A stretch of DNA of 64,000 bases from Thermoflexus sp. (GTDB taxonomy: Bacteria > Chloroflexota > Anaerolineae > Aggregatilineales > Aggregatilineaceae), in NCBI GenBank assembly GCA_020724465.1, contig DYGX01000015.1, forward strand, positions 1 through 64,000. Direction: 5' to 3'. The translations under genes and the position numbers were made by a program. Below are positions 7,603 to 29,452 of this stretch, in pieces. The notes beneath the pieces are model-generated. The model was not told the origin of the DNA, did not search any database, and worked only from the letters and a program-made list of their open reading frames with translations. Position 1 is the stretch's first letter. Each line of letters opens with the position of its first letter.

Positions 7603-7699
7603 AGAGTCTACTTCTCGCTCACAGCGCGCCCGTCCAGACACGGCAGCCCGCACCGGACGGTCGTTATCAGTTCACATGGCGTGCGTCTCGCGGCACCGC

Positions 7700-8980: not shown

Positions 8981-10936
8981 TCACGGCACCACCTCGACGC
9001 CGTACACGTCGCTGCGCACCCAGAGCATCAGCGTTTCGCTCGGCGCCGGCTGGATACGCGTCGCGCCACGATAGAGCCACATAATCATATCACGCCACGA
9101 GAGCGAGTCGAGCGCCCAATCACGCCGGGTGATCAACGTTTTGCCCACGTAGTCCGCACCGAGCACGGGATGCGGCTCAACCGCCGGGGCGATCACGGCT
9201 GCCGTGCGCACTTCTGGCCCCAGGCCGCCGACAAAGGTGGTGTTCGGATAGCGCCGCAGCATCCAGGCCAGCGCGCCATCCCGCGGGACCTGCGCCGTGA
9301 TGTCGATCAGGTGCGGCGTCCCGTTCGCGCGCAGGCTCATCGTCTCCAGTGTCTCGTCCAGCTCGCGGATGTCGTCCGTAACCGGATCGGTGAACCACAG
9401 CATGCGCGGATCGTCCGGCGCCAGCAGAGCTGCGTGCCCACCCGCGCCCGCGCCGAACACCAGCAGCGCGCCCAGCGTTCCCAGCGCCAGACCGTGCCAG
9501 GCCGTGCGCGCGCCCCAGACGCTGCCCACCAGGAAGTAGAGAATGCCGACCAGCAGCGTGAGCAGGATCGTCAGCAGGGCGCGGAGCTGAATGAAGCCCA
9601 GCACATAGCTGAACACCTGCACGCCCTGCACCTCGGCGAGCTCGTTGCTGGCGCTGTTGCGGCTATAGAGGCCGGAGACGATCTGCTCGACCAGCGCGTC
9701 CAGACGGGTGACGCCCGCCGGCAGATCGAGCAGGATCTGCTTGCCCATCAGGACGAGGCTCAGCGCTACCGCCGCCCACAGCGCGAACGTCACCAGCGCG
9801 TGAACCGGCAAACCCCACCGTGGCACGTTCCAGACCACGCCCGGCTCGTCGGTGAGCCAGCGCGTGACGCTCAGCGCGACCAGCGTCGCCAGCGGCAGCG
9901 TCAGCCACAGGGCATGCGCGGCAGTCGCACCGGCATAGCCCAGGCCCCACACGATCCCCGCCAGCAGCCAGCCCACCAGCGCCCGCTCGAAAAAGCTGCC
10001 GTCGCGCACGGCCCGGTAGGCGGCCAGCAACCCAAACAGCGCCAGCCCTGGCTCGTAGCGCAGCGCGATCAGCAGCGGGAACGCCACCGGTGCGCCATCG
10101 GGGCGGGCGATCAGACCGCGCACCGCCCCCTGGACCACATTCCCGATGGACGACAGCCCGGCGGGCAGAAAGAACAACAGCGTGCTCAGCGCCAGCGCGA
10201 TCACGGCCGTCGCCAGCGCGCCCTGCGCCCAGGGCCAGCGCCGTGCCAGATCGCGCAGGCCGGGTCCGATCCCCGCCGCCGGGTCGTCTTCCAGCAGCCA
10301 GGCGAACAGCACGCCGAACGCCAGCCCCGGCAGCATCAGGAACCCGGCCGGCTCGACCAGCAGCGCCATCGCGCCGAAAGCGACCGTCGCCGCCACGGCG
10401 AAGGCCGCGCGCCACGTCTCGACGAAGCGCAGGACCAGCCACGGCCCCACAATCGCCAGCAGCGCCGTCCAGACCACCGGGCTAGACGTGCGCGACGCCA
10501 GCCACGCGACCGGCGAGATCGCCAGCAGAAAGCTCAGGATCAGCGGAGGCAGCGGGTTGAGGTAGCGCCGCCACAACGCAGGCGCCAGCACGAGCAGCAC
10601 GCCGCCAAGCGCGCTGGGGAAGCGTGCCGCCGCGTCCGACATGCCGCCGAAGGTGAAGGTCAGCGCGTGCAGGGCCAGCGTCAGCGGGCTGTCCGGCGTG
10701 TAGACAGGGCCGGGCACCGCTGGGTCGATCAGGCGCAACGTGCCGAGCGCCCGCCACGCCTCGCCGTCGTCGAGCGGCGCGGCACCCAGCGCGGCAAAGC
10801 GCAGCCCAACCGCCACCAGCGCCAGCAGCGCGTAGAGCAGCATTTCCGGCGACACGCGGATACCCAGCGCCGCTTCAACGCCGCCATCCGAGCGATCGCG
10901 CCCCAAAGCCGCCGCCTTGTCAACCGTCATGGTCAT
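8981..10936 (-). CDS. Polytopic membrane protein, GT-C/GT39-like
   Basis: 651-residue, strongly hydrophobic protein. After a short cytoplasmic N-terminus and a first membrane helix (LLYALLALVAVGLRFAAL) comes LDDGEAWRAL, placed like the Asp/Glu catalytic loop of GT-C glycosyltransferases that use polyprenyl-phosphate sugars. Roughly a dozen hydrophobic stretches follow. A soluble C-terminal part of about 130 residues (ADDPRMLWFTDP, YPNTTFVGGLGPEVRTAAVI) resembles the extracytoplasmic tails of archaeal and Chloroflexota GT39-like proteins. The substrate is unknown. The start at 10936 has AGGCAG upstream; an ATG two codons later is also possible. It lies 73 nt after the single-domain YYY gene. 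Confidence 0.7.
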   Translation of the reverse strand: MTMTVDKAAALGRDRSDGGVEAALGIRVSPEMLLYALLALVAVGLRFAALGAAPLDDGEAWRALGTLRLIDPAVPGPVYTPDSPLTLALHALTFTFGGMSDAAARFPSALGGVLLVLAPALWRRYLNPLPPLILSFLLAISPVAWLASRTSSPVVWTALLAIVGPWLVLRFVETWRAAFAVAATVAFGAMALLVEPAGFLMLPGLAFGVLFAWLLEDDPAAGIGPGLRDLARRWPWAQGALATAVIALALSTLLFFLPAGLSSIGNVVQGAVRGLIARPDGAPVAFPLLIALRYEPGLALFGLLAAYRAVRDGSFFERALVGWLLAGIVWGLGYAGATAAHALWLTLPLATLVALSVTRWLTDEPGVVWNVPRWGLPVHALVTFALWAAVALSLVLMGKQILLDLPAGVTRLDALVEQIVSGLYSRNSASNELAEVQGVQVFSYVLGFIQLRALLTILLTLLVGILYFLVGSVWGARTAWHGLALGTLGALLVFGAGAGGHAALLAPDDPRMLWFTDPVTDDIRELDETLETMSLRANGTPHLIDITAQVPRDGALAWMLRRYPNTTFVGGLGPEVRTAAVIAPAVEPHPVLGADYVGKTLITRRDWALDSLSWRDMIMWLYRGATRIQPAPSETLMLWVRSDVYGVEVVP

Positions 10937-11009: not shown

Positions 11010-13718
11010 CTAATTCGGCGCCACACGGTAAACGGCAACGCCGCCCCCGGCGCAAACCGGCGTCAGCACCTGCTCGAACTTCGCCAGCCCCAGCTCGTAC
11101 TCGCGCCGCCGGCTGAGGTCATCGCCGGCCAGCCGCGCGATCATCTGCCGCTCTGCCCCGCCGACCGCGATATAGTCGATCCCGTACCGGTCGATGATCG
11201 CCCAGGCGCGATCCCAATCCTGCGTGGTGTACAGCTCCTGCACGTCGAGGATGCGGTCGCGGTACTGGCCGTTTTCGCGGCGCGCGTCGGTCACCTCAGG
11301 ATACGTCGGCCCGCGCCACTGGCCCTCGTGCCCCTGCCAGCCCATCAGCGTCGGCGTGCCGGTCAGCGCGCTAAAGCGGCTGTACGACGGATTATACCCG
11401 CCCGGAAATGGCGCCTCGGCGATGATCGCGTCGCCAGGGCGGTCCAGCGCCGCGAAGCACTCCACAACCTGATACTCGCCGCTGCCCAGAAACCCGGCGA
11501 AGGTCGGGCGCCCGTCGAGCGTCAGCGGCGGAAGGGTCGGACATTCGGCGCCGGGCGTCTCCATGCAGGCGTCGCGCTGCGCCTTGACCTGCCGGCGATC
11601 GAGGTCATCGTCGAGCGCCCGCGTCTGAAACGCCAGCCAGGGGTAAATCATCCCCGCCGCGAACAGCACGAAAATGACCGTGCCCAGCAGCAGGCGGCCG
11701 ATCGACGGCGCCAGCGAGCGCTCGAAGGCAGGCGCACGCCCGGCCAGCAGCGACCACACGGCGAACCCGCCCGCCAGGCTGAACAGCAGCCAGCCCTGAT
11801 AGTAGAGCTTGAAGACGGTGTTGATCCGCACGCCGAAATTGTCGCGCAGATACAGGAAATCCGGCACCAGCGTCAGCACCGCGCCCGCGCCGATCAGCAG
11901 CAGCGCGAAGCCGGTCGCCGGGCTGAAAGGCAGCGACGGCGACTCGACAGGTTCTTCGCCATCCGCTTCCCCGGCGGGCTCGCGCCCGTCCGCCCGCGCG
12001 AACAGCAGCCCCACCACCGCGCCGATCATCGCCAGCAGGAGCAGCTCGCTCGGCACGCCGGGCAGCCGCGCCCGCAGAATATCCGGCAGGTGATCGCCGA
12101 GCGGCAGCGCAAAATCCGCCCCGCGAAAGATCGCCCCCCGGATGGACTGGTTGTCGTAGAACACCACGCCCAGCGCGGCCATCAGCACCAGTAGCCCGAA
12201 CCCGGCCAGAAACGCCGCCAGCAGCCCGGTCTGCCCATCGAAGCGCCACCCCGCGCGCCGCACCTCAACGATCAGGAAGGCGACCAGCACGACCAGGAAG
12301 AAGCCGAACTGCAAGAAATACTGCTGCCACGCGGTCGGATAGATCACGTTCGGTAGCACGCCGCCCGCCTGCGAGGTGAAGCTGATGATCCACGGCAGAT
12401 ACAGCAGCACCGTCAGCGCGCCGATGACCAGCGCAAAGCGGAGCGTCTCCCACAGGTCGCGCGTCGCCAGCCAGCCGCCGCGCCGGATCAGGCGGCGCAG
12501 CGCCTCCGCGCCGACCAGCAGCACCAGATAGACCGCGTCCCACGAGTTGACGAACACCATCCCGCCGACCCAGATCGCGTAGAGCGGATATTCGAGCGGG
12601 TGCAGCGGCGTGCCGCGCAGGACCAGGTTCAGCGCCAGCGCGACCGCCAGCACCGCGAACGGCAGCGCCAGCACGTGCGGATGCATGTCCGCCAGTACGA
12701 AACTGAAGCTGGGAAACTCGGCGATGGGCTGCGCGCCTTCCGGCTGCCCGGCGAGGTCAAGATCGTGGATCACGCGGCTGTAGCGGAACCACCACCAGTT
12801 GCGCGGCGCGTCCCACTGCTGTAGCGGTTGAGAGTCGCCCGCCCATGTCAGCTCGGCGACGGCGGTCGATCCCCCGCGTTCGGGCACGTCCCAGAAGTCG
12901 AAATACCCCGCGCCGACCACGCCCGAAGCGTAGCCGCGATAGGGCAGCTCGACCAGCGCCGTGCCCAGGTTGCCCATCAACACCAGGAAGCACGTCGCCA
13001 GCAGCCCTGTCGCGATCGCCCCGCCCGCGCCGGACGGTCGCAAGCGCCAGCGCGCCGCCGACTGCACGAGGTTATAGACCACGCCCAGCGCGCCGACGCC
13101 CGCCTGCGCGAACAGCGTCGCCAGCATCAGGTTGAACGCCACCCCGCTGTTGACCGCGCTCAGGTCCGCCAGCATCGCGGCGATCAGATAGCCGAAGTAG
13201 TAGTAGCTGATCGCGTACCCGGCCAGCCACGCGTCATGCGGCGGAAAAGTCTCGCTGGCGCGGATGCTGTTGAGGAACATGATCTCCATCGGCTTTTCGG
13301 TGCTGTACATCTCCGGATAGTGCGCCCGGAACAGCGCCCAGCCGAAGAACAGCGCCGCGAACAGCAATTCGCTCACCACGATCAGCGCGGCGTGCTCGCG
13401 CAGCCACGCGCGGAGCGGCGCGCGCTCCGGCCAGCGCAGATACGCCGCCACGCTCAGCACGCCGACCGCCAGCCACGCAAACGCCGCGCTCCCCGGCGTG
13501 TTGTGCAGCAGGCCCAGGCTGCCGAGGAACCAGAAGACGAAGCCGGTCAGCATCAGCCCGGCAGCCCGTGCCAGCGTATAGCCGCGGTCCGGCAGGCCGC
13601 CGAGGATGCGATACAGCAGCGGCCAGGTCAACGCGCCGGCGATCGTGGTCAGCAGCCACCACGCCAGCAGCCCGCCGCCTTCGCGGCCCAACCAGTCGCC
13701 GATCAATGCCAGGTCCAT
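11010..13718 (-). CDS. DUF2298 / Chlor_Arch_YYY membrane protein, single-domain form
   Basis: 902-residue integral membrane protein of the family modelled by TIGR03662, whose function is unknown. The name-giving YYYFGY lies near residue 172 (AISYYYFGYLIAAML). A second conserved block, AEFPSFSFVLADMHPHVLALP near residue 339, has acidic and histidine residues suited to metal or sugar-phosphate binding. A further block GTPTLMGWQGHEGQWRG lies in the soluble C-terminal region, where YGIDYIAVGGAERQ resembles the tail of archaeal glycosyltransferases. The 2365-residue paralogue ends only 32 nt upstream, so the two are likely co-expressed and may act together. The ATG at 13718 is the only sensible start. 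Confidence 0.9.
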   Translation of the reverse strand: MDLALIGDWLGREGGGLLAWWLLTTIAGALTWPLLYRILGGLPDRGYTLARAAGLMLTGFVFWFLGSLGLLHNTPGSAAFAWLAVGVLSVAAYLRWPERAPLRAWLREHAALIVVSELLFAALFFGWALFRAHYPEMYSTEKPMEIMFLNSIRASETFPPHDAWLAGYAISYYYFGYLIAAMLADLSAVNSGVAFNLMLATLFAQAGVGALGVVYNLVQSAARWRLRPSGAGGAIATGLLATCFLVLMGNLGTALVELPYRGYASGVVGAGYFDFWDVPERGGSTAVAELTWAGDSQPLQQWDAPRNWWWFRYSRVIHDLDLAGQPEGAQPIAEFPSFSFVLADMHPHVLALPFAVLAVALALNLVLRGTPLHPLEYPLYAIWVGGMVFVNSWDAVYLVLLVGAEALRRLIRRGGWLATRDLWETLRFALVIGALTVLLYLPWIISFTSQAGGVLPNVIYPTAWQQYFLQFGFFLVVLVAFLIVEVRRAGWRFDGQTGLLAAFLAGFGLLVLMAALGVVFYDNQSIRGAIFRGADFALPLGDHLPDILRARLPGVPSELLLLAMIGAVVGLLFARADGREPAGEADGEEPVESPSLPFSPATGFALLLIGAGAVLTLVPDFLYLRDNFGVRINTVFKLYYQGWLLFSLAGGFAVWSLLAGRAPAFERSLAPSIGRLLLGTVIFVLFAAGMIYPWLAFQTRALDDDLDRRQVKAQRDACMETPGAECPTLPPLTLDGRPTFAGFLGSGEYQVVECFAALDRPGDAIIAEAPFPGGYNPSYSRFSALTGTPTLMGWQGHEGQWRGPTYPEVTDARRENGQYRDRILDVQELYTTQDWDRAWAIIDRYGIDYIAVGGAERQMIARLAGDDLSRRREYELGLAKFEQVLTPVCAGGGVAVYRVAPN

Positions 13719-13750
13719 ACCGTCGTGGGTTTCACTCCCCCTGAGGGCGC

Positions 13751-16700
13751 TCAGCGCGCCGCGAGACTTTCGGGCAGCGCCGCGCCGCGCACCACGCGAT
13801 AAATCCGATCATAATATACCGATTCCGCCGGGCAGTCCTCGACGGCCAGCGTCGCATAGTCGATGCAGCGCGGCGCCTCGTACACGATCTCCAGCAGCCC
13901 CATCTCCGCCATCCGCTCGAACTTCGCCAGCCCTGGCGCGTGCCCGGCGGTCATCATCCCGGTTACCGGATCCGCCTCGAAATCCCCGTACAGCGCGTGT
14001 TCCAGCGTGCCGACGATGATGTATTCAACCTCGTAGTGCCGCAGCAGCTTCCAGGCAGCGCGGATCGCGTCCGCCATCGACGTGTCCTGCGCGGGCACGC
14101 CGACGGCCTGCGGCAGCCCCGTCGCCGGATCGGCGCCCAGCGCCGGCTGCGGCAGGGTATAGATCGCGGCGACGTTGTTCTCGCGCGCCTGGACCAGCAG
14201 CGGCAGGTTGTCCAGGCCGCGCTGCTGCGTCTGGTGCCAGCGCCAGCCGAGGATCGTCGGCAGGCCGGTGTTGATGCTGATGCGCCCGTTCCAGGCGTAT
14301 TCGGACGGGAAGCGCCGCCCTTCGACGATCACCGGCGTCCCCTCGACATTTTCCTGCAACCAGCGGATGATCGCGTAATCGCCCGCCAGGCTGAAAGCGG
14401 CGTTGCCTTCGTAGTGGCGCGCGTGTTTCATATATTCCAGGCCATCGAGCGTCAGGGGCGTCTCGGCCTTGTTGAAGCGGTCCTCGAAGCGCGCCCGCGT
14501 CGCCATGATCGGGTACAGCAGGCCAAGCGCGATCAGCAGGCCCAGCGCCCCCTGCCAGACGGCGCGCAGCGGCGGCGCCCAGCGATAGGTCACCTGCAGC
14601 ATCCACGCCAGCGCGATCCCGCCGGCGATGCTCAGCAGGAACCACACCTGCAAGTAGAACTTGAAGACCGTGTTCTGGCGGCCAATGTCGCCGTCCAGCA
14701 CCACCAGCTCCACCCCCAGCGAGATCGCCAGCGCCAGCACAATCAGCGCGTACACGGCGCGCAACAGCGGCGCCTGGCGCGGCAGGAAGAACAGCAGCGT
14801 CGCCCACGCGATCAGGGGCACGACAAGCTGGGCAACCGGCACCTGGCGCACGCCGAACACTATCGAGAACAGCACGATCGCCACCAGCGCCAGCCCCACC
14901 CCGATCACCGGCACGGCCAGCCCTTCCAGCTCGCGCACGCGGACCCGCCGCAGCCAGCGTGCCGTCTGCCAGACCAGGAACGAGATCGCGATGAAGATGA
15001 AAATGCCGTGGATGTACAGGTACGCCCACAGCGGCGTTGTCTCCGCTTCCCAGGGCTTGATCGAGCTGTAGGGCGTGGCGAAATAGCGCGTGAAGGGCAG
15101 CGCCACCACGAACACGATGGCCACGAAAGCGATCACCTGCCCCAGCCAGCCCAGCAACTGGGGCCGGTCGATCCGCGCCCGCAGCGCGATCAGCAGCGCC
15201 AGATAGACACCCACTACCACTGCCAGCCCGCCCACGATCCACACCAGCACGCTGGTGGCCGTGATCGACGGGTCGATCAGCGTCTCGCCCAGGCGCAGGC
15301 CGCGGCGAAGCTGCTCGTCCGCCCGAATCCGCTGCACCACATAGAGCGCGACACGCGCCGCCCCTGCCAGCGGCACGATCAGCAGCAGCGGCCACAGCTC
15401 GCGCACGCGGCCCGGTCGCAGCAACGCCCACAGACGCCCGGCGGTAGGTGAAGGGGGCTGGTGGCCGGTCGCGCGCACCGCCGCCAGCCAGGCCGCATAC
15501 GTCAGCCCGGCGGCGCCCAGGATCAGGAAGGTGATCCAGTCCCAGGTGTTGGTCGGGCGCAGGATGCCGACTGCCAGCCCGCCGATGGCCAGCGCCAGCC
15601 CGGCTTCCCACCGGCGGCGCAGATGCCACCCGGCCCCGTTGATCTCGGCCAGCAGCCACAGCAGCGCCAGCAGGTAGACGGGCATGGAGATCATGTGCGC
15701 GTGCAGATCGCCGTAGAGGAAAGTGAAATACGGCATCTCGTTGATGGCATTGTGCCCCGCCCCGCCGGGCAGCTCGCTGATGATGCGCGTCGGCCCCCAA
15801 TGCCAGCGGTTGGAGTAGACCGACAGCGGCTCGCCGTCCAGCACGCGGGCCAGCCCTCGCAGAAAAGCGCGAAGCTGCCCGCGCAGGTTGCTCAGGCCAT
15901 AATCCCAGATGCGCGTCAGCGGGGGGTGCTTGGCCCGCTCGGCGATGTAGGCATCCGTGCGCGCCTGTGCCTCGGCCACGAGCGCGCCCAGCTCGAAATC
16001 GGCCGGGTCGCGCCCGGTGTCGTCGCGGAATTCTTCCAGCGCTTCCCGGTAATAGCGGTCGTAGATCGCCGTGCGCTGGCTTTCCAGCTCCGCACGGACC
16101 ACCTGGCTCAGCAGGGGTTGCTGTTGCCAGCCGTCCAGCGCAGCGACCTCGCGCACGAACACCAGCACCGTCCCCAGGTTGCCGATCACGATCGCCAGCA
16201 CCAGCGCCAGGATTCCGGCAACCCAGGCGCTGCCGCGTGGGGCGCGCGCCTCGCTGTGCAGCGCCGGCGGCTCGGCGGGGAGCGCCTCAAGCGCCGCCGA
16301 CGCTTCTGCCGGGGGCAGCGCCGCGTCGTGCGTCGCACCGGTGATCTGCCCTGGCCGGATGGCGCGCGCCCGGACCCAGTTGTAGGCGATGCTAAAGACG
16401 CCCAGGCCGGTCATCGCGTAGAGCGTCGGGATGATCAGGTTGTAGGCGATGGCCGGATCCAGCCCCAGCAGCTTGACCGGCGCGCCGACGATCACATAGC
16501 CGAAGTAGTAGTAATTGATGTAGCCGCCCGCGAACCAGGGGTCAATCGGCGGGAAGATCGTGCTGCGCAGCACGCCGTTGAAATAGGCCAGGTCCATCGG
16601 CTTCTCGCCGCCCAGCCCGCTCTGCCACAGGTCCGGGTTGCCCAGCCGCACGCCCAGGAACGCCAGGAACAACACCAGCCCCAGCATCTCAACCGCCAGC

Positions 16701-19700
16701 AGATGCCGCCAGTTGGCGCGCAGATAGCGGCGCAGGGCGGCACGGCGGCTCCACCCGGCAACCAGCGCCAGCCCCACCAGCCCCAGCACAATCAGCGCCA
16801 GACCGGTGCGCGTCCAGGTTAGCAGCTTGAGCGTGCCGCCCACCCACGCGATCCACGCGACCAGCAGCCACGCCGTGATCCGCGCCGCCGGGAAGGCGCG
16901 GTCAGCCAGGGCCGGGAAGGTCGCGAACAGCAATGGCCAGACCAGCCACCCCACCCCCGCGATCGCCAGCCACCAGAGGATGACGGCAGCGACCTGGTTG
17001 CGGTTGATCAGCGCGTCGAGGTTGAACAGCTCGCGCCACGTCCCGCCCGCGCGCTGGATCGCCCACTGATCCGCGGTGAACTGGAGCAGCGTGGGCGCCT
17101 GCGACGCCTGGACTGCGTCCCACGCGAACAGCCCAACTGGCTCCGGATCGGGTGTGTAGCCGGGCACGGCGGCGGTCACCGGGCGGCGCGAGACGCTGTT
17201 GAGAAGCGCGGCGGTGTTCTCCGGCGAGTAGGCGTCCGTCTTGCGGAAGACCAGCACTGCCGGGTGGTCGTAAACGTGGTAGGCTTCTTCAGCTTCCCAG
17301 TGCTCGTTGAGCCACGCCGGATGATCGTCGGTCGGCAGAATCTGGTCCGGAATGGTGATCGGCCCCAGGCGCGGGTATGACTCAAACGTCTTGACCAGCT
17401 CAAAGCCAAGCCGCCCGTCGAACAGCGCGTCGTAAAACGCCATCGTCATCGGCCAGCGCATAGGGATGCGGCTGAGCGAGTCGTAAAAGCGGTTGCTGGT
17501 GATAACGATGTAATCCGCCTGGTCGAGCGCGTTGGTCATGGCGGCGAACTTCTGGTCGTTGTCCTCGGCCACCATCCACAGCTTGAGGCCCTGGTAATGC
17601 GCGCCGTACATCCCGATCGCGCCGCAGTCGTAGCCGGACAGGCCCGAGGGCAGATCGTCGCGGTAGAAAACATCGCCCGGCAGCGGGCACACCGGCCAGG
17701 GGACCGGGTCATCCCAGTCGCCTTCCCAGGCGATCACCGGGCCCGAGGTGTAGATCGGGTCCTCGGCCTCGATCACCAGCGTGGCAACCTGCGGGATGCC
17801 CGCCTCGTCGAACCTGCGCACCGGCAGCGGCGGGTCGAAGGTCAGCGTGCGGGGCGATCCCAGCCGGTTAGCGCCCGCGCTCAGGTCTTCCTCGATGGTC
17901 ACCGTGCGCGTCTCGCCGTCCGGCCCGATCAGCGTAAAGCGCACGCGTTCCGGCGCGGCGTCGCCCAGCGGATCGCCCAAATGCGGGATCTCGACCGTCT
18001 CGATCACGCCGTCGATTGGGATCGTGAACTGAACCCGATCGCTGCCGCCGACCGTCCAGTGCGTCGGCGTGGCGGGGATGTCGTCGCCGTAACCCCGGAT
18101 CAGCGGCGGCGTGTCGAAGCTGAGGTTCAGGCCGCTCACGGTGTCGTCCAGCACGGACTGGACGCCGATTGTCACCGCGTCGAGCGACGTCCCACCGCCG
18201 TCCAGCACCCCGCTGATGACCGCGATCGGCCCGCCGTCGAGCGCCGTGATCTCCAGCGCGTAGGGCGGAGTCCCCGACGCGCTCGCCGTCGCTGGCGCCA
18301 GCACCACCTCGTCTTCAACGTCGATCCGGTAGCCCGTGCCGTAAGGTGCATCGCTGCGCGACAGGTCGCGTGCCAGCGTGCCTTCCCACTCAAGCTGGCG
18401 CCCGAGGAACAGGTCGTTGCGCCACAGGCGAACGCGCAGCGTCTCCGGTTCAGGGTCGCCATCCGGATCGGTCAGGTGGTGGAAGGTCACGGCAAAGACG
18501 CGCGCCTCGCCGGGCACGCTGAACGCCACCTCTGCCGACTCGCCCTGCTCCAGCCGCAGCACCCGGGGCGCCGGCGCGACCGTCCCGCGCCCGATGTTGA
18601 CCAGCTTGCGCCGGCCATCCGGCGCGTCGATCCAGATGCCAAAATCGCCCGGCACCGTTTCCTGGAACCAGCGCGACGCGGCTACGCGCGTGAGCTGCGT
18701 GCGGTGGATAGTGTGGAAGCCGAAGCCAAACAGCGCGGTATAGCCGTAGACCAGCGCGACCAGCCCAACCGCGCCGCCCAGCGCCCAGCGCCGGGCCGTG
18801 TCCGGCCGGGCGCGATAGCCCCGCCACGCCGCGGCGACGAGTCGGATCAGGCCCCACGCGGCAAGCAGCGCCAGCGGCGGGTAGATGGGCAGGAAATAGC
18901 GCATGGTCGTCACCCAGCGCCCGCCCAGCCACGCGGAGACGATCAGCACCCAGGCGAACGGGATCAGGTGGCGCGTCCACTGCGGGCGGGCGCGCACGAT
19001 GCCCAGCCCGGCCCACGCCCACGCCCCCCACGCCACCAACCCCAGCGGCGGACCAAAGCCCCACAGCACGATATTGCGCCAGGGGAACAGGTACGGCGTG
19101 CGGCTGGCCCATTGGTGATTGGGCGGCCCGTCCCACTGACCCGACGTCAGCACGGCGGACTCGCGAATGTCCTCAAGCCAGCCGGGGTTAAAGCGCAGGC
19201 CCCAGATCTCCGGGCCGAGGAAGGCGTGCGGCTGCAACAGCCGGAAGGTCACCAGGGCCACGACCGCCGCTGCCATCACGCCGCTGAGTGCATGCGCGAC
19301 AATGTGCGATCGCTGCGAGCGGTCCAGGGCGCGATCCAGCACCGGCAGCAAGCGGATCGCCGCGGCCAGCACGATGATCCCGGCCAGCGGCGCGACGTTG
19401 ATGCGGCTGGCGACTGCCCCGCCCAGCGCCGCGCCGAACAGCGCGTAATCGGCCAGATCGGTCACATCGAGGATCAGCAGCGCCACGCCGCCCAGTGCCA
19501 CCAGCAGCGCCGCCCACGGCGCCAGCGCGTCGAGCAGCAGGCCGCCCATCAGCGCCAGCCAGGTGATCCCCAGCGCCGCCGCCACCCACGCCGGGCGCGC
19601 GCCCGGTTCGCCTGCCCATCGCGGCCCGCGCAGCGCGCCCGAAATCAGCTCCAGGGCCAGCGCGGCCAGGGCGTAGAGCAGCGCGGCCAGGCCAAGCGCC

Positions 19701-20848
19701 TGCATCCCCCCCGCGATCGGGAAGGGGCGCGGCGCAATCACATCCAGAGCGGTCACCACCGCCAGATACAACACGGATGCAAGCGCGGCGGAAGCGGCCA
19801 GCCACGAGCGCCTCAGGCGCGGCGGGAACATCCCGCGCAGCAGCGCCATCACCGCCCCGACGATCAGGAACAACCCACCCAGCAGCGCCGCGCCAAGCGC
19901 CGGACGCTCCCAGTAGGCGGCTTCCCAGATCACCGCTCCGGCCCACAGCGCCAGATAGGCCAGCGCGGGTGCGCCGCGCAGGGCGCTCGCGCCGTCCAGC
20001 GCGCGCACGGCGAGGTAAAGGGCGAGCGTCACCCACATCGTGGTGAAGGCGTCGACCGTCCAGAAATGCGCCTGCTGGATCGGGAACGCCGCCACCGCGT
20101 AGAACCCGGCAGCCAGCAGGCCGGTCCAGCGTCCGTAGAGGCGCCGGCCCAGCAGGAACAGCACCACGATCGTCAGCCAGTCGGCGGTGGCGGAGACGGC
20201 CCGCCCGACGAGCTGCGCCCCGGTATAGGTTTCCCAGTGTGTCGTGACGCGGTGTTCGGCGGCGGCCTGGGGATCGAACGTTTCTAGCAAGGCATGCACA
20301 TCGCGCGAGAGATGCGAGCGCGCCACGCCCGCCAGATGAACGGTGAAGAGCGGGAACTCCCCGTAGACGTACAGCCCCTTGCCGAGGTTGTTGGGGTTGA
20401 GCGGCGAGCACTCCGCGTCGAAATATCCACCCCGCCCCACCCGCTGAAGCGCAGCCAGCCGCGCCTGGGGATCGTCCGTGTCCGGGACGTCGGCGGGATA
20501 GCGCGCCTCGCAGCGCAGGCGGTGCTGCTCGGCGGCGTCCGGCGTGGGATCGGTGAACTGCAGCGGCCCGTTGAGCAGACTGACGACGTCCGTCAGAAAG
20601 CGCTCGTCGGGGTGCAGGTGGGTGTAATCGTCCCAGTTTTGCGCGTCGAAGCGCAACCACGCGCCCGCCGCCAGAATCGCGATCAGCAGCGCGTAAAACA
20701 GCACGTCGAGCGGGCGGATGCTCAGCGCCCACCCCCGGCGCGAATGCACCACCTCATCGAGCGCGGCAGGCTCCGGCGCAGAAGGGTGCGGCGCCGGAGC
20801 GTCAGCAAGCATATCGGGGTCGTTCGAAGGCAACCGTGTCTCGGTCAA
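13751..20848 (-). CDS. Giant fusion: GT39-like glycosyltransferase + DUF2298/YYY domain
   Basis: 2365 residues. About 40-720 form a GT-C/PMT_2-like half with LHPDERFL after the first membrane helix and QQAHFWTVDAFTTMWVTLALYLAVRA typical of such enzymes. About 730-1080 are soluble and beta-rich (RVFAVTFHHL, ETLRVRLWRNDLFLG), probably an extracytoplasmic sandwich. About 1270-2365 repeat the YYY domain: INYYYFGYVIVGAPVKLLG near 1444, NEMPYFTFLYGDLHAHMISMP near 1704, TGLPTILGWRWHQTQQRG near the end. The start is uncertain: the open frame begins at TTG 20848, and an ATG at 20812 is the first ATG; neither has a good ribosome site. Fusion suggests that the YYY domain works on the same lipid-linked sugar as the GT39 half. 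Confidence 0.88.
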   Translation of the reverse strand: MTETRLPSNDPDMLADAPAPHPSAPEPAALDEVVHSRRGWALSIRPLDVLFYALLIAILAAGAWLRFDAQNWDDYTHLHPDERFLTDVVSLLNGPLQFTDPTPDAAEQHRLRCEARYPADVPDTDDPQARLAALQRVGRGGYFDAECSPLNPNNLGKGLYVYGEFPLFTVHLAGVARSHLSRDVHALLETFDPQAAAEHRVTTHWETYTGAQLVGRAVSATADWLTIVVLFLLGRRLYGRWTGLLAAGFYAVAAFPIQQAHFWTVDAFTTMWVTLALYLAVRALDGASALRGAPALAYLALWAGAVIWEAAYWERPALGAALLGGLFLIVGAVMALLRGMFPPRLRRSWLAASAALASVLYLAVVTALDVIAPRPFPIAGGMQALGLAALLYALAALALELISGALRGPRWAGEPGARPAWVAAALGITWLALMGGLLLDALAPWAALLVALGGVALLILDVTDLADYALFGAALGGAVASRINVAPLAGIIVLAAAIRLLPVLDRALDRSQRSHIVAHALSGVMAAAVVALVTFRLLQPHAFLGPEIWGLRFNPGWLEDIRESAVLTSGQWDGPPNHQWASRTPYLFPWRNIVLWGFGPPLGLVAWGAWAWAGLGIVRARPQWTRHLIPFAWVLIVSAWLGGRWVTTMRYFLPIYPPLALLAAWGLIRLVAAAWRGYRARPDTARRWALGGAVGLVALVYGYTALFGFGFHTIHRTQLTRVAASRWFQETVPGDFGIWIDAPDGRRKLVNIGRGTVAPAPRVLRLEQGESAEVAFSVPGEARVFAVTFHHLTDPDGDPEPETLRVRLWRNDLFLGRQLEWEGTLARDLSRSDAPYGTGYRIDVEDEVVLAPATASASGTPPYALEITALDGGPIAVISGVLDGGGTSLDAVTIGVQSVLDDTVSGLNLSFDTPPLIRGYGDDIPATPTHWTVGGSDRVQFTIPIDGVIETVEIPHLGDPLGDAAPERVRFTLIGPDGETRTVTIEEDLSAGANRLGSPRTLTFDPPLPVRRFDEAGIPQVATLVIEAEDPIYTSGPVIAWEGDWDDPVPWPVCPLPGDVFYRDDLPSGLSGYDCGAIGMYGAHYQGLKLWMVAEDNDQKFAAMTNALDQADYIVITSNRFYDSLSRIPMRWPMTMAFYDALFDGRLGFELVKTFESYPRLGPITIPDQILPTDDHPAWLNEHWEAEEAYHVYDHPAVLVFRKTDAYSPENTAALLNSVSRRPVTAAVPGYTPDPEPVGLFAWDAVQASQAPTLLQFTADQWAIQRAGGTWRELFNLDALINRNQVAAVILWWLAIAGVGWLVWPLLFATFPALADRAFPAARITAWLLVAWIAWVGGTLKLLTWTRTGLALIVLGLVGLALVAGWSRRAALRRYLRANWRHLLAVEMLGLVLFLAFLGVRLGNPDLWQSGLGGEKPMDLAYFNGVLRSTIFPPIDPWFAGGYINYYYFGYVIVGAPVKLLGLDPAIAYNLIIPTLYAMTGLGVFSIAYNWVRARAIRPGQITGATHDAALPPAEASAALEALPAEPPALHSEARAPRGSAWVAGILALVLAIVIGNLGTVLVFVREVAALDGWQQQPLLSQVVRAELESQRTAIYDRYYREALEEFRDDTGRDPADFELGALVAEAQARTDAYIAERAKHPPLTRIWDYGLSNLRGQLRAFLRGLARVLDGEPLSVYSNRWHWGPTRIISELPGGAGHNAINEMPYFTFLYGDLHAHMISMPVYLLALLWLLAEINGAGWHLRRRWEAGLALAIGGLAVGILRPTNTWDWITFLILGAAGLTYAAWLAAVRATGHQPPSPTAGRLWALLRPGRVRELWPLLLIVPLAGAARVALYVVQRIRADEQLRRGLRLGETLIDPSITATSVLVWIVGGLAVVVGVYLALLIALRARIDRPQLLGWLGQVIAFVAIVFVVALPFTRYFATPYSSIKPWEAETTPLWAYLYIHGIFIFIAISFLVWQTARWLRRVRVRELEGLAVPVIGVGLALVAIVLFSIVFGVRQVPVAQLVVPLIAWATLLFFLPRQAPLLRAVYALIVLALAISLGVELVVLDGDIGRQNTVFKFYLQVWFLLSIAGGIALAWMLQVTYRWAPPLRAVWQGALGLLIALGLLYPIMATRARFEDRFNKAETPLTLDGLEYMKHARHYEGNAAFSLAGDYAIIRWLQENVEGTPVIVEGRRFPSEYAWNGRISINTGLPTILGWRWHQTQQRGLDNLPLLVQARENNVAAIYTLPQPALGADPATGLPQAVGVPAQDTSMADAIRAAWKLLRHYEVEYIIVGTLEHALYGDFEADPVTGMMTAGHAPGLAKFERMAEMGLLEIVYEAPRCIDYATLAVEDCPAESVYYDRIYRVVRGAALPESLAAR

Positions 20849-20971: not shown

Positions 20972-23900
20972 TCACTCCAGCCCGATGAAGCCTGCCATCA
21001 CGCGGTAGATCAGAAACTCGCCGGTTTCTGTGCCCTGGGTGGTCTCGTAGGTGTAGGTGTACCGCTCGATTGTCCCGCCCGGAAACGTGTCTTCCAGGAA
21101 AACAGCAGTGGCATAATCCTGCGGATGAATCATGATGAACAGCGGTTTGGACGGGTCATAGGCGTAGGGCGTGCCCCGGTTGGCGGCGATACGATCGAAG
21201 ATCTGCTCGCGCGTGACCAGCCCGTTCGGCCAGCGCAGGTCCCCGGCGACCGCGCCGAGGATGCGGTGATCGAGCCAGTGCGGATAGGCGACCATAAAGG
21301 CGTTGCCATAGCTGCCCTCGCCCAGCGCGAACGCCTTCATCGGCGCGGCGATAGCGTGATAGGGCTTCCAGCTATGGCTGTAGCTGAGCCGGTAGTCCGT
21401 GAAGTAGTTGCGCCAGTTTGGTCCAATGGCCCCCGCCAGGACGAGCGCGATCGCCGCCAGACCGGCAGCGGCGCCCACCCACGCGCGCCATCGCTCGCGC
21501 GGCGCCTCGTTCAGCCCGGCGCCCAACGCGCCCAGCGGCAGCGCCGCCAGCAGAAAGACGGCCGGGATCGCGCCGCTGGCCCGCGTAAAGCTCGGATTTT
21601 CGATGGTATAGGCCAGGGTCAGCGCGGAAGGCAGGAGCATCACCAGCACCACCGCCGGAACCAGCCAGTCGACCGCCGCCGGGCGCCGTGCCACCCGCAC
21701 GCCCCACAGCACCAGCCCCAGAATCAGCAGGCCGCCGGTCAGCCCGTCAAGCGCCGGGTGCCCCTGAGCGTTGTTGATCCACGCGCTGTCGCCCTGCCAG
21801 TGCGCCATACGCAGCGCATCCGCATAATTGTCGACCAGCACGCCGCGCTGCTCCCAGATGCGCTCGATCTGCTCGGCCAGCGAGGGGTGATAGACGACCG
21901 TCTGCCCGGTGTCGGGATCGATCCGCCAGAACGTCTCTTCGCCGAACAGCCGCCCGCGCGTGCGGTTCCAGAACTCGTCCGGATACAACAGGCTGTAGTG
22001 GTGCATCGGCAGATAGAGCGCCAGGGCGATCACGGCTGCCGCCAGCAAGCCGCCGCCATAGCGCGATGTCGCGCCGCGCCGCGCCCGCGCCGCCAGCGCC
22101 ACGATCGCGAACCACGCCATCGCCGCCAGCGGGATCAGCGCGCCGAGCTGCTCGCCAAACGCGCGCAGGTTGGCGCGCTCGCTTCGTTCCAGCAGCCAGG
22201 CGCCGCCCGCATAGGCCAGCACCGGCAGCACCGCCGCCACGCCCACCACCGACGCTTCCAGCATGATACGCGGCACGTCCCGCCAGCGCCGCGCCGTACC
22301 CAGCGCCGCCAGCGCCACGCCGATCACCGCCAGCACGGGCAGCATGCGGTTGGCCTGGTAGAAATAGACCCCCGCGCCGAGCGTCAGGCCGAGCGCCACA
22401 AAATCGCGCATCCGGTTGTGGCGCATGGCCCGCGCCAGAAAGCCGATCGCCAGCGCGGTGGTCAGCGGCGTCAGCACGATCCGCAGCCCCAGGCGCGAAA
22501 GCATGACGTGCCACGAGCTGATCGCCACCAACCCCGCCAGCGCCAGCCCGACCCAGTTGCCCAGCCGCCGGGCGCGTGCTGTCTCTGTGCCGATTACCTG
22601 GCGCGCCATCCACCACAACGCCGGCAGCGTCAGGATGCCCTCGATCGCGCTGGCAAGCTTGAGCGCCCGGAAATTGAAGCCGACGCCCAGCACATCCGCG
22701 ATGAAGGCGACGACCATCATCTGAAAGCCTTCACGCCCGCCGTTGTTCGGGAAGAAAACCGCCACATGCCCCTCGCTGACGCGCAACGCGTCGAGCAGCT
22801 TTTCAATGTGGTCGCTGGTCATCTCCGGCGGGGTCGAATCGAGATTGTGCAGGCGAAAATAGGCCCCCACGGCAATCATCGCCAGCAGGGCAAGCGCGGT
22901 CGCCAGCACGTCTGGCTGTCGCCACCAGCGGCGCGCCGGGCGGGCTGACTGCGCGCGCGGGCGCGGCCCGGATTGCCGCCGGGCGCGCCAGTTGACGAGC
23001 AGAATCCCCACCCACAACGCAATCGACAGCGCCCACAGGATCACGCCGCCCGACGTCAGCACCACGTCGATCACCCGGCCGTCGGGCGCGCGCTGGACGT
23101 TGGCGCGGTACGCCAGGCCGGAAAGCAGCACCGCCGCCGGGATCAGCGCCAGAGCCGGCGTGTGCACCTGGAGCCAGGACGTCACCGGGGTGCCGCGCTG
23201 CGCCACCGGCTGCGCGGTGGGCGCAGGCATGATCATCGAGCGCACACGGAAGACGGCCTCATCACCACCGTCCGGCTCGTCACCTTCCGGCTGATCCGGC
23301 AGCGCATCCTCGGGCGGCGCCAGGCCGATCAGCAGCCCGGTCCACAGCGCGGCGCTCAGCGCCAGCAGGATCGCGGCGCCCGCTATACCGCCGGGCGCAA
23401 TCAGGGCCAGCGCCAAAGCCAGAAGCGCCGCGCCCGCCCAGGCCGCGCGCCGCCATCGGGCCGCCGGGCCGTCCGCCACAAGCGCGTGGATCGCTGCCGC
23501 CGCGCGCGGGAGACGCCGCGCCCACCAGCCGCGCGCTGCATACAGCTCGACCCCAACCACCAGCGCGCCGCTCAGCACAAACCACATCAGCGCGCCGCGC
23601 GTATCACCGCGCAGCCGGGCCACCGGATCCAGCGCCGCGGCGTGCAGAGTCACGCCGCCTTGCAGCGCCAGCAGGATCGCAGCAGCCAGCGCGCCTGGCC
23701 GCATCCAGCGCGCCGCGTCGCGGGCTGCCGTTTCGCCTTCGCTGACCGGCTCCTCATGCGGGGCAGGCAGCGGCTCGTCTTCGTCCCAGGGTTCCGGCTC
23801 AGGCGGAGCCGCCTCGCGCCCATCGGAGCGCCGGCTCGCCGCGTTTGCGTCCGCGTCCGCCGCCGGATCGTAGGTCAGCACACGCCAGAACAGGCGCGCG

Positions 23901-24082
23901 GTGCGCGCCGGTCGCCAGAACAGATAGCGCAGCGCCTCGGCCAGCGTCAGGTCTTCGAAGATCACCGCCGCCGCCTGGACCGGGCTGCCGTCCTGGGGAA
24001 CCGGCGCCGCCGGAGAATCATCCGGGCCGCGATACCCCGGCGCGCCGGACTCTGGCGCGTGCTCGAAATCCTGCTCGTTCAT
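20972..24082 (-). CDS. Glycosyltransferase family 39-like membrane protein with long N-terminal extension
   Basis: 1036 residues. The first 140 are cytoplasmic, acidic and Pro-rich. A hydrophobic block of several helices (about 150-340) precedes the GT-C core. The core starts near 395 with LAMIAVGAYFRLHNLDS, then PEMTSDHIEKLLDALRVSEG and FFPNNGGREGF, a loop typical of GT39-like enzymes of Chloroflexota that use polyprenyl-phosphate sugars. A C-terminal soluble domain (ITREQIFDRI, HPQDYATAVFLEDTFPGG) covers the last 150 residues. The extra N-terminal membrane block is unusual for the family and unexplained. The gene starts 36 nt after the upstream gene ends and is followed by a 123-nt gap before the giant fusion. 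Confidence 0.82.
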   Translation of the reverse strand: MNEQDFEHAPESGAPGYRGPDDSPAAPVPQDGSPVQAAAVIFEDLTLAEALRYLFWRPARTARLFWRVLTYDPAADADANAASRRSDGREAAPPEPEPWDEDEPLPAPHEEPVSEGETAARDAARWMRPGALAAAILLALQGGVTLHAAALDPVARLRGDTRGALMWFVLSGALVVGVELYAARGWWARRLPRAAAAIHALVADGPAARWRRAAWAGAALLALALALIAPGGIAGAAILLALSAALWTGLLIGLAPPEDALPDQPEGDEPDGGDEAVFRVRSMIMPAPTAQPVAQRGTPVTSWLQVHTPALALIPAAVLLSGLAYRANVQRAPDGRVIDVVLTSGGVILWALSIALWVGILLVNWRARRQSGPRPRAQSARPARRWWRQPDVLATALALLAMIAVGAYFRLHNLDSTPPEMTSDHIEKLLDALRVSEGHVAVFFPNNGGREGFQMMVVAFIADVLGVGFNFRALKLASAIEGILTLPALWWMARQVIGTETARARRLGNWVGLALAGLVAISSWHVMLSRLGLRIVLTPLTTALAIGFLARAMRHNRMRDFVALGLTLGAGVYFYQANRMLPVLAVIGVALAALGTARRWRDVPRIMLEASVVGVAAVLPVLAYAGGAWLLERSERANLRAFGEQLGALIPLAAMAWFAIVALAARARRGATSRYGGGLLAAAVIALALYLPMHHYSLLYPDEFWNRTRGRLFGEETFWRIDPDTGQTVVYHPSLAEQIERIWEQRGVLVDNYADALRMAHWQGDSAWINNAQGHPALDGLTGGLLILGLVLWGVRVARRPAAVDWLVPAVVLVMLLPSALTLAYTIENPSFTRASGAIPAVFLLAALPLGALGAGLNEAPRERWRAWVGAAAGLAAIALVLAGAIGPNWRNYFTDYRLSYSHSWKPYHAIAAPMKAFALGEGSYGNAFMVAYPHWLDHRILGAVAGDLRWPNGLVTREQIFDRIAANRGTPYAYDPSKPLFIMIHPQDYATAVFLEDTFPGGTIERYTYTYETTQGTETGEFLIYRVMAGFIGLE

Positions 24083-24118: not shown

Positions 24119-26011
24119 TCAGCCAACCCGCACCGGCCCCAGCCCGATCTGCCGGTCGCGAGAGCCGTCCGGCAGGGTCACGCCGACCGTCTCCAGCGGG
24201 CGTTCGACATCCGCGAACGCCGACAGGCTGATGAACCAGTCGCCGCTCGCCTCCGCCGGAAGCGGCAGCCGCACCGCATCGGACACCGTCTCGCCGGGCC
24301 GCCAGCACGTCACCGGGTAGCGCGTCTCGTCCGGCTGCCAGACGACCGCTTCCCCCGGCGTGCCATCCGGCCCAACCGGCAACGCCGCGAAGTAGTAGGG
24401 CGTGGTCACCTGCCGCTCGCTGCGCCAGTTGAGGTGCAGCACAACCGCGCCGTCGTCCGCCTCAGCCGACCAGCCGACCAGCCGGAAGCCTGGGTCGAAG
24501 CGGGTATCCTGCGGCACGGCGGCAGCGCGCGCCGGCGGCGGATCCGGGTGCGGAGCCAGATCCGGCGCGCCCATCACCGCCCAGGTGCTCGCCAGCGCCA
24601 GCAGCAGAACCCCCTGCGCCGCCCACAGCCCGCGCCAGGCCCGCGCACGCTCCTCAGGCGTGCCCAGCCGCGCGATCCACTGCCCCGCGCTCAGCAGCGC
24701 GAAGGGGATCAGAAACAGCCACACGCGCCCGGTTTCGCCCCGCGCCGTTCCGCTGAGCAGCAGCAACCCCAGCGTGCCAAACAGCGCCAGCGGCAGCACA
24801 TCCTCTCCGCGCCGCCAGCGGACCAGCGCCAGCAGCGCCGCGATCACGACCGGCAAGCCGCCCAGCAGCGCCCATTCCCAGGCGTGCATCCACAGCCAGG
24901 GCACATATGGGCGGTCAAGTTCCAGATGCCGCTCGAACGCCACGTGCGCCATCTCAAACGGCGCGCTGCCAGTCAGCGCCCAGAACACCAGCCACGGCAG
25001 GGCCAGCCCCAGCGCGAACCACGCGCCGACCTGCACCGGGAACCACCACACCCTCGCCTGCCGCTCGTTGAGCGCGTGCCGCAGCAGCGCGTACAGCCCC
25101 AGCAGCCCAACGAGCGGGATCATCGAAAAATTGGCGAAGGTCAGCAGCCCGGCGATCAGCCCGGACGCGGCCCACCAGCCCGCGCCGCGCCGCGCGTCAT
25201 AGCCGCGCAGCAGCAGCCCGAACGCCGCCACGCTCAGCGCCGGGTAGACCGTGTTCCACGATCCGGCGAACATCAGCGCCGCGGGGACCAGCGCCCACAG
25301 CAGCGCCAGCCAGGGCGCATCGAGCGCCATCCGGCGGGCCACCGCCGCCAGCGGCAGGACGGTCAGCGCGGCCCAGACGGGCATCAGCAGCCCGACGAGC
25401 GCCGCCGCCCACTCCGCCGCCGAGAACTGCAGCAGCGTGTAATTGTCGCACTGCAGCGGCACCAGCGCGCGCCGGATCGCCCCCGCCACGCCGGGAAGTT
25501 GCTCGAAGCCCGCCGCCGCGCCCGCGTAGACCAGCGGCAGGCCCGGCGGGCTGAGCGCCACATGCTGGCTCAGCTCGCGGTAATCCACCATCACCGCCGG
25601 CCAGTCGTGCCATGCCGGATCGGACCAGTCGATCAGCCCGGCGGCGGTGTATGGGCCGGTGGCCGTCAGCGATGCGGTCCGGTAGAACAGCTCCGCCAGC
25701 GGGTCCCCTGCGCGCGCCCAGGTCACCAGCAGCGACAGCGCCACCGCGCCCAGCATCCCCCAGGCAAGCGCGCCCCGCGTCCACGCCGCCCGGATCAGCC
25801 ACGCCGCCACCAGCGCGAAGACGGCAACCCCCGCCCCCAGCGCCAGCGCCCGCCCTAATGGGACCGGCTCGTGCGGCCACTGCCAGTGAAACAGCTCCGC
25901 GCCGCGCAGAAACGGCACCAGATCCAGCGCCAAAATCAGCGCCAGCGCGGCACTGGCGGCGACGATGATCACCACCGCCCGCGCCGGGCGGCTACCCTCT
26001 ACCCGCCTCAC
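24119..26011 (-). CDS. Polytopic GT-C-like membrane protein with beta-sandwich tail
   Basis: 630 residues from a GTG at 26011 that overlaps the upstream methyltransferase stop as GTGA, implying translational coupling. Around 11-13 hydrophobic stretches are visible. The extracytoplasmic stretch VDYRELSQHVALSPPGLPLVY (about 142-163) has the acidic plus Pro-Pro-Gly look of GT-C enzymes such as GT87/GT39. The last 130 residues, beginning FRLVGWSAEADDGAVVLHLNW, form a beta-rich tail similar to the one in the separate 659-residue protein at 40 kb. Specific substrate is not predictable. Confidence 0.72.
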   Translation of the reverse strand: MRRVEGSRPARAVVIIVAASAALALILALDLVPFLRGAELFHWQWPHEPVPLGRALALGAGVAVFALVAAWLIRAAWTRGALAWGMLGAVALSLLVTWARAGDPLAELFYRTASLTATGPYTAAGLIDWSDPAWHDWPAVMVDYRELSQHVALSPPGLPLVYAGAAAGFEQLPGVAGAIRRALVPLQCDNYTLLQFSAAEWAAALVGLLMPVWAALTVLPLAAVARRMALDAPWLALLWALVPAALMFAGSWNTVYPALSVAAFGLLLRGYDARRGAGWWAASGLIAGLLTFANFSMIPLVGLLGLYALLRHALNERQARVWWFPVQVGAWFALGLALPWLVFWALTGSAPFEMAHVAFERHLELDRPYVPWLWMHAWEWALLGGLPVVIAALLALVRWRRGEDVLPLALFGTLGLLLLSGTARGETGRVWLFLIPFALLSAGQWIARLGTPEERARAWRGLWAAQGVLLLALASTWAVMGAPDLAPHPDPPPARAAAVPQDTRFDPGFRLVGWSAEADDGAVVLHLNWRSERQVTTPYYFAALPVGPDGTPGEAVVWQPDETRYPVTCWRPGETVSDAVRLPLPAEASGDWFISLSAFADVERPLETVGVTLPDGSRDRQIGLGPVRVG

Positions 26012-29205: not shown

Positions 29206-29248
29206 AAGGGGCGAGGCTGCCTCTGATCTCCAGATGACCCGGCGGGCC

Positions 29249-29254
29249 ATTATA
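29249..29254 (-). promoter_or_regulatory. -10 box TATAAT before the surface-glycan run
   Basis: A perfect TATAAT on the minus strand (29254-29249) lies 44 nt upstream of the flippase-like gene. The expected -35 position holds no good match (ATGGCG). It is the only candidate for the head promoter of the minus-strand run. It could alternatively be the target of an activator or of another sigma factor. Confidence 0.5.
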
Positions 29255-29407
29255 GCCGCTCTCACCTGCCGCGCCATACCCAGTTTACACCGCCCGCCGG
29301 ATGAATCCCCACCCGGCCGGCAGACGCAGTCCCACAGTAGGCGAGGCGTAGCGCAGGCATGTTTTGCGCGGCGTCTTCGCGTCACGTCCGACAGGGTGAA
29401 ACGGGCG

Positions 29408-29413
29408 TATGAT
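29408..29413 (+). promoter_or_regulatory. -10 box TATGAT before the SH3/LysM gene
   Basis: TATGAT lies 39 nt upstream of the ATG at 29453. CCGACA is visible upstream but only 14 nt away, so the -35 box is unclear. The promoter would be divergent from the -10 box at 29249-29254. Confidence 0.4.
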
Positions 29414-29452
29414 GGAATCAGCATACGCCTTGCAAGGCAGAGAGGTGCCTCG

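Follow-up and report, generated by a model that had tools for sequence, protein, structure and literature searches.

Two neighbouring proteins of the YYY/DUF2298 family, encoded by a Chloroflexota genome, are very probably sugar transferases that work at the outer face of the membrane. We make this assignment because they share a block of acidic and histidine residues that is almost never altered among relatives and that sits, according to structure predictions, where oligosaccharyltransferases hold their metal ion and the lipid-phosphate. In our preferred reading, to which we assign a probability of about 0.72, the YYY domain is an oligosaccharyltransferase-like GT-C glycosyltransferase. The block would constitute the EL2/TM4 half of the active site, a glutamate outside the block (E141) would be the base, and a sugar would be transferred on the outer face. 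Conservation, predicted fold, sidedness and a register good to about two residues were computed here; from these we infer the metal binding, the base, the donor and the reaction. The resulting map of candidate active-site residues (E141, E334, D344, H346, H348, R631, K637 and H797) makes DUF2298 a testable glycosyltransferase. The family is mentioned in the literature as an uncharacterised membrane protein (PMC8756737), and our search of the open literature found no published function.

Genes and motifs

The window, i.e. the whole stretch of DNA analysed, comprises 64,000 nt from Thermoflexus sp. (Chloroflexota; Anaerolineae), assembly GCA_020724465.1, contig DYGX01000015.1, positions 1-64,000 of the forward strand, and all window coordinates count from its first letter. 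According to a genome-wide profile search, the genome has two YYY domains in total, both of them within the window. Both proteins belong to DUF2298 (PF10060) and to TIGR03662 (Chlor_Arch_YYY), with scores above the curated cut-offs of 27.8 and 300.25 bits, respectively:

11010-13718, minus strand: stand-alone YYY/DUF2298 protein, 902 aa (PF10060 E 5e-95, 319.7 bits; TIGR03662 E 1.1e-125, 421 bits)
13751-20848, minus strand: fused YYY/DUF2298 protein, 2365 aa (PF10060 E 3.9e-103, 346.5 bits; TIGR03662 E 4.6e-131, 438.8 bits)

In the model, the 902-aa protein starts with three additional TM helices, continues with 13 GT-C TM helices and ends in a domain predicted to be extracytoplasmic. The 2365-aa protein has an N-terminal GT-C-like membrane part, a middle part and the YYY/DUF2298 domain at the C-terminus (approximately residues 1290-2335). 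A Pfam profile search returned zero matches for its N-terminal part. Residues ~1-730 resemble another GT-C enzyme, with NWDDYTHLHPDERFLTDV after the first helix, and in relatives (e.g. G119:C15:15030-15482) the STT3 model weakly matches this part of the fused protein. If it is a GT-C enzyme, two different GT-C modules would be joined in one polypeptide.

The motifs discussed below, all on the minus strand, are the following:

12675-12722: block of the stand-alone copy, AEFPSFSFVLADMHPH, residues 333-348 (E334, D344, H346, H348), end of EL2 / start of TM4; from translation, alignments and model
15695-15742: block of the fused copy, NEMPYFTFLYGDLHAH, residues 1703-1718 (E1704, D1714, H1716, H1718); from translation and alignments
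13284-13298: E141-K-P-M-E145 of the stand-alone copy, N-terminus of the first juxtamembrane helix (142-154), with the proposed catalytic base; from conservation and model
16592-16606: E1415-K-P-M-D1419, the EKPM[D/E] motif of the fused copy; from alignment
13188-13205: YYYFGY (172-177) of the stand-alone copy, end of EL1 / second juxtamembrane helix; Y172 and Y173 conserved in at least 97%
16496-16513: YYYFGY (1446-1451) of the fused copy; from translation
12537-12548: N391-S-W393-D394 of the stand-alone copy, short EL3; from alignment and model
15539-15550: N1767-T-W-D1770 of the fused copy; from alignment
11808-11828: R631-I-N633-T-V-F-K637 of the stand-alone copy, start of TM12 by the model, with a putative lipid-phosphate binding role; R 100%, N 100%, K 98%
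14660-14680: R2057-Q-N2059-T-V-F-K2063 of the fused copy; from alignment
11313-11342: GWQGHEGQWR (H797, R802) of the stand-alone copy, C-terminal extracytoplasmic domain; H 98%, R 98%
14219-14248: GWRWHQTQQR (H2205, R2210) of the fused copy; from alignment

The original prediction, made from the window alone, had described a pattern E-x-P-x-F-x-F-x3-D-x-H-x-H common to both domains, lying about 165 and 260 residues after YYYFGY. The translations and the back-checked coordinates agree with this, and the measured distances from YYYFGY to the Glu are 162 and 258 residues. The EKPM[D/E] motif, whose E141 lies 31 residues before YYYFGY, had not been included in it.

Conservation and distribution

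Between the two window copies the block is identical at 7/16 positions, compared to 28.6% identity overall (pairwise), which is a moderate likeness. Since the pair by itself is only moderately similar at this place, the case for the block is built on the relatives. When 725 columns were ranked by conservation in 89 non-redundant domains, H346 came 1st, H348 3rd, E334 12th and D344 19th. Columns 333-348 make up the second most conserved 16-column stretch, practically level with the RxNTVFK region, and together with the shifted stretch 334-349 they are the sole one holding four polar columns with a conservation of at least 95%. When the 19 polar columns that reach this level were placed at random, 8.5% of the trials showed a cluster of four, and the polar clustering by itself is therefore not used as an argument here.

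The expectation that the block is constant in wider alignments is borne out. E334, D344, H346, H348 and also E141 are all invariant in an alignment of 119 sequences (called A2), and among 238 full-length copies E334 is present in 237, D344 in 234, H346 in 238, H348 in 236 and E141 in 236. At D344, the exceptions are Cys in two copies, Thr in one and a gap in one. The counts for other columns in the same set are 237 for R631, 237 for N633, 235 for K637, 236 for H797, and 238 for both R822 and E856. We also considered 24 additional copies, from 18 genomes chosen mainly for their low-scoring members, and the block is intact in 24/24. The two copies with Cys at D344 are stand-alone ones (L051 and L068, genomes G047 and G279, family f29), in which the remaining acid, His and basic residues of the site are kept.

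A match to the family is found in 213 of the 301 Chloroflexota genomes sampled, and the nearest relatives, judged by the YYY protein, are Anaerolineae MAGs with ~61-64% identity. DUF2298 proteins are also present in Methanosarcina, in haloarchaea, among them Haloferax volcanii, and in one or more Bacillota. Plasmid searches yielded only two members from outside the Chloroflexota, Halarchaeum (Archaea) and Pseudobutyrivibrio (Bacillota); both keep the block, which reads ITEFPFFSYLNGDLHAH in the former and ITETPSYSFVIGDLHAH in the latter. In viral contigs, 66 matches to the pattern were obtained, with 0 relatives of YYY among them.

One degenerate paralogue (genome G159, L045:4276-6501, minus strand) lies beside an intact copy. 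It carries the changes E141D, E334Q, D344T, H348F and H797W, and N250 and R315 are also lost, while R631, N633, K637, R822 and E856 are kept. This joint loss fits one shared site, as a single case. The degenerate copy, which the tree places beside the fused clade, is a candidate for a natural pseudo-enzyme.

Predicted fold and membrane sidedness

A model of the whole stand-alone protein was calculated with AlphaFold2 on the A2 alignment (pLDDT 92.2, pTM 0.94). Its 40 best VIA matches in the PDB are all GT-C chains or domains of GT-C chains. The Z scores are up to 16.2 for Stt3 (yeast and human), 14.8 for ALG12, 14.4 for DPY19, 14.0 for AglB, 13.9 for Pmt4 and 12.8 for ArnT, with AftD, AftA, EmbB and PIG-U also among the best 40, and the first unrelated fold in the list has a Z of 4.8. 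The top Foldseek matches of the same model are AglB, AftA and PglB. A GT-C fold of the YYY domain, with the TM core and the EL1 juxtamembrane helices, is thus supported by the model. In addition, residues 742-900 superimpose on the C-terminal domain of AglB (3vu0) with a Z of 11.1 and an rmsd of 2.6 Å over 129 residues.

The helices in the model are TM1 (110-133), JM1 (142-154), JM2 (175-187), TM2 (191-224) and TM3 (from 231), followed by a long EL2, TM4 (347-368) and, further on, TM13 (671-703) and the outer domain. The numbering, with three extra N-terminal TM helices ahead of GT-C TM1-TM13, is our own reading of the AlphaFold2 model. In the predicted topology there are 29 Lys and Arg at the inside ends of the helices and 9 at the outside ends. 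Of the 26 columns in which 85% or more of the sequences have the same polar residue, 24 are, by the model, extracytoplasmic or in the outer domain. The residues of the block are not expected to fall on opposite membrane faces: the model topology and the positive-inside count both predict them to be extracytoplasmic.

Two traits of GT-C enzymes are found here. The predicted topology puts the active-site residues on the extracytoplasmic face, and a conserved acid, E141, directly precedes the first juxtamembrane helix (142-154) and so occupies its tip. From the predicted fold and topology it follows that the residues of the site would cluster in one pocket.

Register against oligosaccharyltransferases

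In GT-C enzymes, the C-terminal end of EL2, where it runs into TM4, is the half of the site that binds the metal and the phosphate. To place the block relative to this region, we used a model of a fragment (residues 97-372, pLDDT 84, pTM 0.80). According to the VIA end points, residue 372 of this model aligns with residue 187 of AfAglB, 180 of PglB and 247 of STT3B, and an ungapped count back along TM4 brings D344 to about residue 159 of AglB and 152 of PglB. The second DXD motif reads D161-H-H163 in AglB of A. fulgidus and D154-x-D156 in PglB, and Mn2+ is bound by D47, D161 and H163 in AfAglB (PMC8342417; PMC7226087). By this end-point mapping of a model, D344-x-H346 would lie no more than about two residues away from this metal-binding motif. 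As the register is good to about two residues, H346/H348 could match D161/H163 instead of D344/H346.

The fragment gives Z scores of 12.8 for STT3B, 7.5 for PglB and 6.8 for AglB, compared to 7.0 for an unrelated receptor. Since the values for PglB and AglB are no better than those for some receptor bundles, the register leans also on the whole-protein match. With the fragment, Foldseek had no GT-C protein among the matches listed and none at E <= 0.001, and a second look with VIA listed STT3B, PIG-U, PglB and AglB.

Oligosaccharyltransferases of the STT3/AglB type occur in a few Chloroflexota (L168, L200, L201, L202, L213 and L217), one genome (G079) having three. Their second motif is DHH, in one case DTH, a pattern resembling the D-x-H of YYY. 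An hhalign comparison of YYY TM1-TM4 with six of the Chloroflexota STT3 proteins came out in the wrong register with a probability of 0.4%, and gave no valid alignment. A divergent Chloroflexota membrane family (L057-L064) was considered as a guide to which His is the ligand, and was ruled out because its alignment is ambiguous at TM4.

Comparison with known families

The closest likeness is to AglB/STT3/PglB (PF02516). Common to both groups are a GT-C fold, in which 13 TM helices are followed by an extracytoplasmic domain at the C-terminus (for YYY from the model), a conserved acid at the EL1/JM1 tip and a D-x-H at the end of EL2 (D161-H-H163 in AglB). YYY differs in having a Glu as the EL1 acid, an extra His (DxHxH), an upstream Glu, a long insertion in EL2 and three extra N-terminal helices, and it has no sequence homology to these enzymes detectable by hhalign, PDB sequence search or hmmscan. 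PF02516 did not match the YYY proteins in hmmscan, and the window's genome gave no match to it either; a PDB sequence search with the 119-member profile returned chance matches only (chemokine receptor, LMBD1, triosephosphate isomerase). The sequon-binding WWDYG motif is absent from both window proteins, which have a conserved GWxxHxxQxR instead. No Glu of the TIXE/SVSE type was identified by alignment and model, and EL5 (522-539) contains no highly conserved Glu. Judged from sequence and model, the YYY family is a GT-C family that is near the oligosaccharyltransferases in build and outside PF02516 by its sequence and by the WWDYG motif.

The tryptophan C-mannosyltransferase DPY19 has, besides the similar fold, a Glu as the EL1 catalytic residue (PMC10154233), as proposed for YYY. 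DPY19 is metal-independent, and its active site shows no obvious ligands for a metal, whereas YYY keeps the D-x-H-x-H. ArnT, Pmt4, ALG12, AftA/AftD and EmbB have the helix core in common with YYY, at lower or similar Z, and no common sequence signature was found beyond weak PMT_2-type patterns in neighbouring genes. The divergent L057-L064 family mentioned above has an EL1 pattern G..FPPxxPYFAG..YHWF and a DMNKYFQ that can be compared with RMNTVFK, with an hhalign probability of 98%. It is without the E/D-x-H-x-H block, and has a GTGLL.HRAT..GLP motif before the corresponding helix.

Gene neighbourhood

The YYY pair is found inside a minus-strand run of GT-C-like genes (2353-26011). The neighbouring genes, those of the run being identified by profile search, are:

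2353-7653, minus strand: GT-C-like gene, 1766-aa fusion of PMT, NHL repeats and an FGE-sulfatase domain
8981-10936, minus strand: GT-C-like gene, weak match below cut-off to Agl23 (TIGR03663)
20972-24082, minus strand: GT-C-like gene, PMT_2
26008-26859: methyltransferase, following the GT-C-like run
28162-29424: lysylphosphatidylglycerol-synthase-type membrane protein

Genes for a phosphomannomutase/phosphoglucomutase and a nucleotidyltransferase are located further along the window. These neighbours, together with the polysaccharide genes that surround the Pseudobutyrivibrio copy, point to surface glycan assembly as the setting of the YYY pair. The proteins hint at an uncharacterised surface-glycan pathway in a phylum with an unusual cell envelope.

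Proposed mechanism and alternatives

In the mechanism that we propose, the donor would be a polyprenyl-phosphate(-phosphate) sugar, and its sugar would pass to an acceptor on the outer face. Either a divalent cation or the departing lipid-phosphate would be bound by D344 and H346, probably joined by H348, in the manner of D161 and H163 of archaeal AglB, and E334 would have a supporting role in this half-site. E141, or alternatively D/E145, at the tip of the first juxtamembrane helix would be the general base that activates the acceptor, and R631/K637 together with H797 of the outer domain probably contact the (pyro)phosphate or the acceptor. The catalytic base of GT-C enzymes is found at the JM1 tip also in PimE (D58), with equivalents in ArnT, ALG6 and PglB (PMC12041525), and in DPY19 the EL1 catalytic residue is Glu71 (PMC10154233).

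The original prediction had proposed the block as a metal-dependent GT-C active site, an interpretation that is partly supported. That the block belongs to a GT-C active site agrees with its near-invariance, the predicted GT-C fold, its location on the outer side and its place at the second DXD position, but the block would account for only half of that site, and the likely catalytic base is outside it. The Tyr-rich motif, which had been described as not looking catalytic, is probably indeed not catalytic, but Y172 and Y173 are near-invariant in EL1/JM2 and may bind substrate.

Metal dependence of YYY is deduced by analogy, and several GT-C enzymes, among them DPY19 and PimE, are metal-independent (PMC10154233; PMC12041525). 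It is thus possible, if on the unlikely side, that the same GT-C site works without a metal, with D344, H346 and H348 holding the phosphate or sugar of the donor through charge and hydrogen bonding, and with the acid/base work left to E141. In PimE it is a His and a Lys that hold the phosphate (same references), and in YYY the invariant pair R631/K637 is on the same side; YYY also has a Glu at the EL1 position as in DPY19. On the other hand, AglB binds its metal with a D-x-H pattern at this second DXD position (PMC8342417), an Asp beside a leaving phosphate is more sensible with a cation, and the Cys that replaces D344 in two copies would be tolerable in a metal site. The YYY domains are in this respect an independent family for asking why only some GT-C enzymes require metal.

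Three other alternatives were considered. For purified Agl23 of H. hispanica, translocation of a lipid-linked oligosaccharide was seen in liposomes (PMC11182771), and a role as a lipid-linked-sugar flippase, or an accessory role, on the GT-C fold was therefore kept. The gene adjoining the YYY pair is the one that weakly matches the Agl23 model (E 6.8e-13), but positions of catalytic type (E141, D344/H346, R631/K637) are kept in nearly all copies, as in an enzyme, and the C-terminal domain is like that of AglB, so that we consider this role improbable. Even less credit is given to the idea that the residues of the block have no part in the chemistry and are kept for the sake of folding or the packing of helices. 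The neighbouring Pro, Phe and Ile of the block are likewise conserved and, to our knowledge, E334 has no counterpart in other GT-C enzymes, which both speak for packing; yet it is unlikely that packing only would preserve one Asp, one Glu and two His in a span of 15 residues at the membrane surface, and the block is at a known active-site position. Least probable of all is that the GT-C scaffold serves a metal-dependent hydrolase or phosphatase with lipid phosphates as its substrates. The DxHxH by itself would be compatible with hydrolases, and OST/AglB is reported to hydrolyse its own lipid-linked donor too (PMC8342417), but the whole fold, the 13-helix layout and the C-terminal domain follow the transferases, and the Pseudobutyrivibrio relative is part of a polysaccharide gene set.

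Fused and stand-alone forms

Returning to the two YYY proteins, the fused copies are on one side of a branch with an SH-aLRT of 98 in the tree, and by sequence the fused and stand-alone copies are two old clades. The order fused-then-stand-alone, side by side, is seen in 60 of 81 loci, and in the 238-copy set the block is retained in both forms alike. A tentative scenario, to which we give somewhat less than even odds, is that a separate GT-C family gained, or kept from a deep ancestor, an AglB-type D-x-H metal site, a Glu base and an additional His. In the Chloroflexota, one ancient duplication would then have led to the stand-alone and the GT-C-fused forms, both active and acting sequentially on one surface glycan.

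Some genomes depart from the common arrangement. At one locus (L048, G147 contig 2, ~976706-984907), the first YYY domain of the fused protein is degraded and the second is intact, and the stand-alone copy is split in two frames. In G115 and its relatives (family f24), the fused protein has two full-scoring YYY domains.
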